NCBI GenBank assembly: GCA_016873115.1
Contig: VGYB01000017.1
Location: 1-40,292 of the forward strand
Length of the DNA stretch: 40,292 nucleotides
Direction of reading: 5' to 3'
From: Planctomycetota bacterium
Lineage (GTDB): Bacteria > Planctomycetota > Phycisphaerae > Phycisphaerales > SM1A02
Shown here: positions 7,288-23,721 of the stretch, piece after piece
Layout of the letters: every line of letters begins with the position of its first letter
Position numbering within the stretch: the first letter of the stretch is position 1
The notes under the pieces: generated by a model
What the model was told of the DNA's origin: nothing
Seen by the model: the letters and a program-made list of their open reading frames with translations, nothing else
Database searches by the model: none
Made by a program: the position numbers and the translations under genes

Positions 7288-7362
7288 GGCCCCATCGTCT
7301 AGCCCGGTCTAGGACATCTCCCTTTCACGGAGAGGACAGGGGTTCAAATCCCCTTGGGGTCA
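7288..7362 (+). tRNA. tRNA-Glu (anticodon TTC)
   Basis: The 75 bases fold into a complete cloverleaf. The acceptor stem GGCCCCA pairs with TGGGGTC and contains one G-T pair. The anticodon arm is TCTCC-CTTTCAC-GGAGA with anticodon TTC. The T arm is AGGGG-TTCAAAT-CCCCT, and A is the discriminator base. No CCA is encoded. The layout matches bacterial glutamate tRNAs closely. A strong terminator hairpin follows 8 bases later. The last 19 bases of the gene are repeated 238 bp downstream. Confidence 0.96.
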
Positions 7363-7433
7363 TTCACCTTGCAGCCCCGGCGGATGCCGGGGCTGCTTCG
7401 TTTCATGACCCACCGCAGCGCCCGCTGCAGCTG
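7344..7433 (+). repeat. 90-bp direct repeat, copy 1 (tRNA 3' end plus terminator)
   Basis: This copy starts inside the T arm of tRNA-Glu and runs through the terminator hairpin to the CTGCAGCTG at 7425-7433. Positions 7582-7671 repeat it exactly over 90 bases, an offset of 238 bp. It resembles the attL/attR scar of an element integrated at a tRNA 3' end, or a small tandem duplication. Confidence 0.95.
7371..7400 (+). terminator. Intrinsic terminator of tRNA-Glu
   Basis: A perfect 11-bp stem (GCAGCCCCGGC with GCCGGGGCTGC, loop GGAT) at 7371-7396 is followed by TTCGTTT. It would end the tRNA transcript. Confidence 0.85.
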
Positions 7434-7581: not shown

Positions 7582-7671
7582 TCAAATCCCCTTGGGGTCA
7601 TTCACCTTGCAGCCCCGGCGGATGCCGGGGCTGCTTCGTTTCATGACCCACCGCAGCGCCCGCTGCAGCTG
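7582..7671 (+). repeat. 90-bp direct repeat, copy 2
   Basis: Exact second copy of 7344-7433. It carries the last 19 bases of tRNA-Glu, including the 3' half of the acceptor stem, but lacks the rest of the tRNA, so it cannot make a functional tRNA. Confidence 0.95.
7609..7638 (+). terminator. Duplicated copy of the tRNA terminator
   Basis: The same 11-bp stem and 4-base loop as at 7371, followed by TTCGTTT. It may insulate the downstream beta-helix gene from tRNA read-through. Confidence 0.75.
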
Positions 7672-22450: not shown

Positions 22451-22583
22451 GCAATCTCCCATGGCGTAACAACTGGCCAGAGTCTGGATTGTGATCTAAC
22501 TAACTACAATATCAAGACTTATGTTCGTGGTTCCCGCGAGATTATGGCTCAGATGGGGCCGACTTGAGAAAAATGGCAGCAGT

Positions 22584-22619
22584 GTGTTGCATGGTGGGGC
22601 CAAGTGTCGTAGAGTGGGG
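22584..22619 (+). promoter_or_regulatory. Four tandem 10-bp MraZ-type boxes upstream of mraZ
   Basis: GTGTTG (22584), GTGGGG (22594), GTGTCG (22604) and GTGGGG (22614) recur at exactly 10-base intervals. MraZ is known to bind arrays of GTGKN-type boxes spaced by one helical turn upstream of its own gene. The array ends 14 bases before the mraZ start. A TTGAGA at 22564 could be a -35 for a promoter overlapping the array, but the -10 is unclear. Confidence 0.75.
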
Positions 22620-22633
22620 CTGAGGTCACTTGG

Positions 22634-23050
22634 GTGCTCTTCACGTCCACCTACATCCACGGACTCGACGCGAAGCGTCGTCTAGCGATCCCCGCCCAAT
22701 GGCGGGCGCGCCTGGACCCCATGGTCCATGGCGCTCGGATCATGGTGTCGCCGGGCTCGGGTGGCCGGCTGTGCCTGTGGACCGAGAAGGAGTTCGAAGT
22801 CCAGGCGGAGCCGTTCCGGTCAGGGCTGGTGAACGATGCTCAATCCGCCAAGCGGGCGGCCTTGCTGTTCAGCAACAGCGATGCCCTCGAGGTCGATACG
22901 GCCGGCCGTATCCGCATTCCGGATCGGTTGCTCGAGCTGTTCAAGCTGGAGGACAAGGTGGTCCTCCTTGGGGTGGGCAACCACATCGAACTCATCAGCG
23001 CCTCGCAGTACCGGGAGCCGACGCTGGAGGACATCACGGGCATGCAGTGA
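22634..23050 (+). CDS. mraZ: MraZ, cell-division-associated transcriptional regulator
   Basis: The 138-residue product starts at GTG 22634, 7 bases after GAGGT. It has the two SpoVT/AbrB-like halves of MraZ: TYIHGLDAKRRLAIPAQWRA in the first and LEVDTAGRIRIPDRLLELF in the second. These contain the DxxxR DNA-contact motifs, with Arg in place of the usual Gly in the first. MraZ forms rings and represses its own operon, usually mraZ-mraW-ftsL. Here it is not followed by mraW or any division gene; it is followed by a structured RNA and csrA. Its operator array lies directly upstream. Confidence 0.93.
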   Translation: MLFTSTYIHGLDAKRRLAIPAQWRARLDPMVHGARIMVSPGSGGRLCLWTEKEFEVQAEPFRSGLVNDAQSAKRAALLFSNSDALEVDTAGRIRIPDRLLELFKLEDKVVLLGVGNHIELISASQYREPTLEDITGMQ

Positions 23051-23315
23051 GCGCACAGCGCACATTGCGGCTCGAACGAACGCACCAGGACGGTGCACTG
23101 GGTGCACGGATCGCACCCAATCGGGCACACGGAAGGTGCCCGGACACGCTGGAACCCGCCTGCACGGACGCAGCCTGTTCCAGCTTCTGACCGAACCATG
23201 GATGGTTCGGGCCACAGCCAAGGATGGCGGTGGCAGCCTCAAGGATGAGGCGCAGTGGGCGAAAGCCCGTTTCCGTCGATGCCCCTGCACCTCAAAGGGT
23301 GCAGGGGCATTTTTA
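23051..23315 (+). ncRNA. CsrB/RsmZ-like CsrA-sequestering RNA candidate: seven GGA-loop hairpins plus terminator
   Basis: The 265-base interval after mraZ holds seven successive hairpins, each with GGA in its loop. Stem positions and loop sequences are: 23082-23096 (AGGAC), 23099-23119 (ACGGATC), 23122-23142 (ACGGAAG), 23148-23184 with an outer 8-bp and inner 4-bp stem (ACGGAC), 23191-23210 (ATGGAT), 23211-23234 (AAGGAT) and 23236-23251 (AAGGAT). The stems differ in sequence while the loops stay ANGGA or AGGA, which matches the CsrA target ACANGGAU. GGA-to-GGA distances are 20-35 bases, suitable for bridging by a CsrA dimer. A GGGC-GAAA-GCCC hairpin (23257-23268) and an intrinsic terminator follow. 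No promoter was seen, so the 5' end is uncertain. It may be processed from the mraZ mRNA. The neighbour is csrA. Confidence 0.82.
23279..23314 (+). terminator. Strong intrinsic terminator of the GGA-hairpin RNA
   Basis: A perfect 13-bp stem, ATGCCCCTGCACC with GGTGCAGGGGCAT around the loop TCAAAG, is followed at once by a run of T (23310-23314). It separates the RNA and mraZ from csrA. Confidence 0.92.
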
Positions 23316-23356: not shown

Positions 23357-23478
23357 TTCATCCGAGGAGGGGTGAATCCCGAAGGAGGGGGGTACTTTGA
23401 TTTGGTCCGGGCGCGTCGCCTGGGTCAGCCACCGCACGGTGCGAACGGATGCGCGCGGTGGCCAGTCTGGGCAGGAGG
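23357..23478 (+). promoter_or_regulatory. csrA leader with GGA hairpins, likely CsrA autoregulation
   Basis: Between the terminator and csrA, TTCATCC pairs with GGGTGAA (23357-23376, loop GAGGAG). GCCACCGC pairs with GCGGTGGC (23428-23462), enclosing an inner 4-bp stem with loop GAACGGAT. A weaker CCC/GGG hairpin (23378-23389) has loop GAAGGA. The Shine-Dalgarno AGGAGG at 23473 is itself a GGA site. CsrA commonly represses its own mRNA by binding such sites. A promoter for csrA was not identified. Confidence 0.65.
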
Positions 23479-23484
23479 TCCGCT

Positions 23485-23721
23485 GTGCTCGTCATCACCC
23501 GTCACGTCGGCGAAGAAGTCATCATCGGAAACCCCGCAGCTCCGCTGGGGACCATCCGCATTGCCGCCATCAAGGGTGATCGCGTCCGCATTGCGTTTGA
23601 CTTCCCTCGAGAGATGCCCGTCCACCGCAGCGAGGTGGCCAGGGAGATCCTCGAGGAGCAGCAGCAGCGGCGAACTGACATCGCCGGCCGTATCACGGAA
23701 GACGGGGCGGCCGGGGCTTGA
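23485..23721 (+). CDS. csrA: CsrA, carbon-storage / post-transcriptional regulator
   Basis: The 78-residue product starts at GTG 23485, 6 bases after AGGAGG, and reads MLVITRHVGEEVIIG. It has IRIAAIKGDRVRIAFDFP and REMPVHRSEV, which contains the conserved VHR arginine that contacts RNA. CsrA dimers bind GGA motifs in hairpin loops near ribosome-binding sites and alter translation or stability of many mRNAs. It is often linked to flagella and surface life, though no flagellar gene is seen here. The residues NPAAPLG form a small insertion between the first strands compared with E. coli. A GGA-rich RNA directly upstream could titrate it. Confidence 0.95.
   Translation: MLVITRHVGEEVIIGNPAAPLGTIRIAAIKGDRVRIAFDFPREMPVHRSEVAREILEEQQQRRTDIAGRITEDGAAGA

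Follow-up and report, generated by a model that had tools for sequence, protein, structure and literature searches.

A hairpin array 3' of mraZ in a planctomycete as a candidate CsrA-sequestering RNA

Results

The region between mraZ and csrA2 was analysed in a window of 40,292 nucleotides, which is the whole stretch of DNA studied and forms contig C17 of a 2.36-Mb genome. Both genes lie on the plus strand, and the segment 23082-23314 between them holds seven non-overlapping GGA-loop hairpins followed by a terminator. The features of the locus are as follows, with the supporting evidence in brackets.

22554-22619, plus strand: three TGGGG boxes (22554, 22595, 22615) upstream of mraZ (kept in 8 congeners)
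22634-23050, plus strand: mraZ, 138 aa, GTG start (Pfam MraZ PF02381, 61 bits)
23082-23096, plus strand: hairpin 1, GCACC-AGGAC-GGTGC (hairpin count; kept in 8 congeners)
23099-23119, plus strand: hairpin 2, TGGGTGC-ACGGATC-GCACCCA (hairpin count; congener alignment)
23121-23143, plus strand: hairpin 3, loop ACGGAAG (hairpin count; congener alignment)
23148-23184, plus strand: hairpin 4, two-tier, tip CTGC-ACGGAC-GCAG at 23160-23173 (fold, hairpin count)
23191-23210, plus strand: hairpin 5, CCGAACCA-TGGA-TGGTTCGG (hairpin count; 22.5 bits with hairpin model R1, the highest score in the window)
23211-23234, plus strand: hairpin 6, two-tier, tip GCCA-AGGA-TGGC at 23217-23228 (hairpin count)
23236-23251, plus strand: hairpin 7, GCCTCA-AGGA-TGAGGC (hairpin count, hairpin-model search)
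23257-23268, plus strand: small hairpin GGGC-GAAA-GCCC, 5' of the terminator (fold)
23279-23314, plus strand: 13-bp intrinsic terminator with T-run (sequence, terminator scan; kept in congeners)
23439-23456, plus strand: hairpin with AACGGATG loop (ACGGAT hairpin) in the csrA2 leader (invariant in 8 congeners)
23469-23481, plus strand: short hairpin, GGGC-AGGAG-GTCC, whose loop holds the csrA2 Shine-Dalgarno sequence (leader comparison)
23485-23721, plus strand: csrA2, divergent CsrA paralogue with a 4-residue insertion (Pfam CsrA, 51.9 bits)

A sequence-only reading had placed GGA cores at 23088, 23108, 23131, 23166, 23200, 23222 and 23243; all seven positions were correct, and each lies in a hairpin loop whose stem has 4 bp or more. 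It had also described ANGGA or AGGA loops on stems that differ from hairpin to hairpin, closed by a 13-bp intrinsic terminator. The stems do differ in sequence, all but one of the seven loops show ANGGA once the closing base pair is included (the exception, hairpin 1, has CAGGA), and the terminator was detected by a dedicated terminator scan, being absent from the list of a simpler one. The 250-nt core carried seven GGA-loop hairpins, whereas most of 1000 dinucleotide shuffles had none or one and no shuffle had more than 4, an excess of GGA loop motifs over chance that is expected of a CsrA-sequestering sRNA. No other 250-nt stretch of the window held more than five, whichever strand was read. 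The fold of the array RNA has an energy of -147.8 kcal/mol (z = -7.8).

The search of the genome with hairpin model R1, in which 150 of 1399 candidates were scored, found no second array cluster. Lone strong ANGGA hairpins occur elsewhere in genome G000 at C36:18960-18977 (L298), C11:47948-47965 (L299) and C2:10475-10492 (L295); some are possibly near gene starts and are candidate CsrA targets. The window holds two identical copies of a sequence that forms a strong hairpin (GCAGCCCCGGCGGATGCCGGGGCTGC), at 7363-7400 and 7600-7640, the first copy lying directly 3' of a tRNA at 7288-7362.

Seven other genomes of the genus also carry the array RNA, at 88-93% identity and again flanked by mraZ and csrA2, and the alignment of the 8 congeners revealed the constraint on each part. 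None of the 21 GGA positions varied and neither did any of the seven bases at -2, while the N at -1 varied in five of the seven hairpins; variable positions made up 10% of stems and 45% of other unpaired sequence. This is the pattern expected if A-N-GGA in a loop is selected. Hairpin 5 showed a compensatory change from A-U to G-C, with both sides of one pair altered, in four of the 8 congeners.

Nucleotide search of relatives detected similarity to the array in the same genus only, because the hairpin stems and their order change; regions were therefore compared by their position relative to mraZ. Other genera of the family carry GGA-loop hairpins with unrelated stems 3' of mraZ and on its strand. 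ANGGA hairpins form a sharp peak 0-400 nt 3' of the mraZ stop codon, in the sense strand only, with a density of 2.33 per 230 nt in the peak region of the family against about 0.1 elsewhere, and the sites are almost never spaced by less than 18 nt. At least one such hairpin was present in all 61 named Phycisphaerales loci with mraZ (mean 3.5, compared with 0.23 in shuffled sequence), a set that overlaps the genomes used in the other searches. Array-type hairpins extend across the family of the window and most families of the class: the other families of the order and class, the CsrA-less one excluded, gave a mean of about 1.9 ANGGA hairpins per 450 nt, and shuffles about 0.2. The sequence-only reading would have lost its ground if relatives had not kept the GGA hairpins; they are kept in the 8 congeners and class-wide. 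Conservation across the phylum was unsupported by 28 loci from its remainder (0.43 against 0.25 expected). Family f47, outside the class, has 2-3 ANGGA hairpins 3' of mraZ in three genomes (L272, L282, L294), which could be an independent array or a remnant of one.

The specificity of the loops was assessed in 37 regions of the family. GGA ranked first of the 64 loop trinucleotides, with 132 occurrences compared with 32 in shuffles. When only GGA was required, the flanks that emerged were C (84%), A (84%), N, GGA, U/C and G (77%), so that the loop consensus is A-N-GGA with flanking C and G, as expected of a CsrA-sequestering sRNA. This consensus, C-A-N-GGA-[U/C]-G, is close to the RUACARGGAUGU selected by SELEX for CsrA (PMC7652899). 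In a test without preselection for pairing, 51% of ANGGA sites in the 3' region of mraZ had at least 5 of 6 flanking pairs, compared with 6% for [CGT]NGGA in the same region, 0% for ANGGA in antisense and 4% for ANGGA further downstream. Among 60 hairpins, which were preselected for good pairing, double-sided compensatory cells numbered 146 against 46 in shuffled data, and covariation was 0.997 against 0.213. Chance composition is thus ruled out by the shuffles, the antisense strand, other motifs and other positions.

The upstream side of mraZ was also informative. Pairs of TGGG at exactly 10/20 nt spacing were found upstream of the gene in 92% of 60 named loci and in 2% of shuffles, and the boxes follow a strict 10/20/30-nt periodicity in the window (22554-22634) and in these 60 loci. 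TGGGN boxes repeated at a 10/20-nt period upstream of mraZ have the form of an MraZ operator, and in planctomycetes the TGGG boxes are likely to be such an operator. On the downstream side, an intrinsic terminator closes the array in 41 of the 61 loci of the family, where about one is expected. In most loci outside the order the gene after mraZ is rsmH, judged from the downstream reading frames, and the hairpins lie between the two. The array belongs to mraZ and not to csrA, because it lies 3' of mraZ on the same strand, csrA is often convergent, and rsmH is the next gene outside the order.

The csrA2 product retains the LVITR and VHR motifs and matches CsrA relatives in the PDB with E 4.5e-9; its insertion lies around NPA.P.G, and the paralogue runs through the family. 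Most genomes of the family have two csrA genes, a classic copy adjoining fliW and the divergent csrA2. FliW and the classic CsrA were not found in the genus of the window, which has csrA2 only, and in the genome of the window this gene was the single csrA match. Within the family csrA2 adjoins mraZ; in 41 of 61 loci it follows in the same orientation, and in the other 20 it is convergent. Outside the family csrA does not adjoin mraZ. These arrangements rule out a csrA leader as the general role of the array. The leader of csrA2 has hairpins of its own at 23439-23481, and the form with the Shine-Dalgarno sequence in the loop, GG[GA]C-AGGAG-GTCC, recurs in many csrA2 leaders of the family. Since the ACGGAT hairpin is invariant and the Shine-Dalgarno sequence can sit in a loop, the leader sequence suggests a site of CsrA autoregulation.

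The relation of the array to the presence of CsrA was examined across the class. CsrA was found in none of the six genomes of family f16, the only CsrA-less family in the class sample, and the mraZ 3' regions of this family held 0.17 ANGGA hairpins against 0.20 expected and 1.89 elsewhere. A total as low occurred in 5 per 100,000 draws of six random class genomes (estimated from 20,000), but the lack of the array counts as one event and not six, because the six genomes form a single clade. The genome of the window encodes CsrA, and the array is absent where CsrA is absent, as for a CsrA-sequestering sRNA, on the basis of this one clade and with one exception. The exception, G180, has 4 hairpins and no csrA found; its assembly is 87% complete in 720 contigs, and the gene may be missing through an assembly gap. 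Few or no hairpins were seen in the CsrA-bearing families f7, f8, f18 and f23. In family f16 (L125, L133, L135, L136, L219, L220) rsmH was read in three loci, and in these it is still separated from mraZ by 360-430 nt. The density of ANGGA hairpins was equal with and without FliW (1.84 and 1.90), which rules out dependence on FliW, and in roughly half of the class genomes with CsrA that were compared the array is found together with FliW.

The search of Rfam that the sequence-only reading had proposed gave no support for family membership. CsrB, CsrC, RsmX, RsmY and RsmZ had no match at curated score in the window or in 20 related loci, and none to the array up to E = 10; no Rfam family of any kind reached its threshold in the array or the 20 loci. 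Permissive thresholds yielded no family either, and a match to NsiR1 rests on the terminator. TwoAYGGAY (RF01731) scored 24.1 bits (E 0.12) against a gathering score of 43, which leaves the array outside that family as well.

Discussion

RNA antagonists of CsrA were described in 2014 as identified in Gammaproteobacteria only (PMC4333381), and Planctomycetes were listed in 2015 among the phyla that may use FliW instead (PMC4682653). No planctomycete CsrA-sponge RNA was found in the literature on CsrA with Planctomycetes or Phycisphaera, a body of text that includes few subscription papers or preprints.

As the best explanation of the results, we take the array for an RNA that sequesters CsrA; it would be the mraZ 3' UTR itself or a piece cut out of that transcript, and would end at its own terminator. 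We give this a probability of roughly three in four. In this form the CsrB/RsmZ-like sponge of the sequence-only reading is strengthened by the class-wide ANGGA hairpins, the covariation of unrelated stems, the SELEX-like flanks and the absence of the array where CsrA is lacking; it has to be corrected in respect of the neighbour, as the conserved one is mraZ and not csrA. We infer that the array is transcribed, binds and titrates CsrA, and stands under the control of MraZ. Points against a sponge are the single CsrA-less clade, genome G180 and the CsrA-bearing families with few or no hairpins. In addition, many genomes outside the genus of the window have only 2-4 sites, which is few for this role, and many of the stems are long, where SELEX work suggested a possible disadvantage of very stable ones (PMC7652899).

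The array would work like CsrB or RsmZ and is set apart as a functional analogue, a new variant and not a family member, because no Rfam model matched at threshold. RsmZ, RsmX and RsmY of Pseudomonas are likewise short RNAs with GGA in consecutive hairpin loops, and RsmZ, with its eight GGA sites, takes up four to five RsmE dimers (PMC13287468); the array differs from them in lacking an Rfam match, in lying 3' of mraZ and not in a separate gene, and in its phylum. CsrB and CsrC of E. coli titrate CsrA through repeated CAGGA(U/A/C)G loop motifs (PMC7652899) and resemble the array in this repetition of GGA loops, although CsrB has 22 GGA sites to the seven of the array, which matches neither Rfam model. 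There are Csr sRNAs under the control of the two-component system BarA-UvrY or GacS-GacA; at the locus of the array, MraZ-box-like operators were found. The adjacent hairpins with A-Y-GGA-Y loops of TwoAYGGAY are also similar, but they number two and not seven. TwoAYGGAY is a predicted, not proven, CsrA-binding RNA outside Gammaproteobacteria (PMC4333381), with human gut, Gammaproteobacteria and Clostridiales as its sources (PMC2864571). In the CsrA-FliW network of Campylobacter jejuni, as outlined in PMC4894983, a dual-function flagellin mRNA is involved, and there too a protein-coding transcript takes part in CsrA control; the array differs in having dedicated sites after the coding sequence, and in its genus no FliW was found.

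A free-standing sRNA gene, with its own promoter within the end of mraZ, would still be a sponge; this reading is compatible with the best explanation and only varies it. The last 8 mraZ codons are invariant at third positions in the 8 congeners, as an overlapping promoter could cause, but this constraint is absent in a second group of 15 relatives, and only about 30 nt separate the mraZ stop codon from hairpin 1. The scan found no sigma-70-like site on the array strand, nor one for mraZ itself. Codon-position and promoter scans thus give no clear evidence of a promoter just upstream of the array, and a separate gene is considered unlikely; the RNA is more likely the mraZ 3' UTR or a product processed from the mraZ transcript.

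The chief rival in function is action in cis, in which CsrA would bind the mraZ 3' UTR and stabilise or destabilise the mRNA, or control the downstream rsmH in dcw operons, with no meaningful titration. It agrees with the constant position 3' of mraZ, with the location between mraZ and rsmH outside the order, and with the low number of sites in many genomes. In the family, however, csrA2 is often convergent and the array often closed by a terminator, and therefore no downstream gene is available for control in cis; furthermore, on a typical mRNA leader a CsrA/RsmE dimer contacts two GGA motifs (PMC13287468), fewer than the seven sites in the genus of the window. We regard cis action without titration as distinctly improbable, and a cis effect and titration may occur together. 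That the hairpins bind another protein or are structural stabilisers, with a coincidental resemblance to CsrA sites, is very improbable: it fits stems more stable than typical SELEX winners, but A(-2), GGA and the flanking C and G match the CsrA consensus, and the CsrA-less family has no array.

The sequestration model predicts the following course of events. Transcription controlled by MraZ would pass through mraZ into the array and halt at the terminator. The A-N-GGA loop of each hairpin would occupy one of the RNA-binding faces of a CsrA dimer. With two loops taken up per dimer, the array could have room for about three to four dimers on its seven sites. CsrA would be withdrawn in this way from the mRNAs that it represses, probably including that of csrA2. 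Because the array lies behind MraZ-box-like operators, free CsrA would drop when mraZ is expressed, and mraZ expression would thereby couple cell-division control to the Csr regulon.

Conclusion

For the class as a whole, the results tilt modestly towards a planctomycete Csr system in which the mraZ 3' UTR would be the sponge and autoregulated MraZ would set the level of free CsrA, a system that would have arisen independently of CsrB/RsmZ and would coexist with FliW. The joint action of FliW and sRNAs in any species was left to be determined in a 2020 review (PMC7652899). The class offers array and FliW side by side, and also genera with the array in which no FliW was found, and this makes the question directly testable. 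If the sequestration reading is true, it would mean convergent evolution of a CsrA sponge, and it would tie MraZ, a widely conserved regulator, to global post-transcriptional control.
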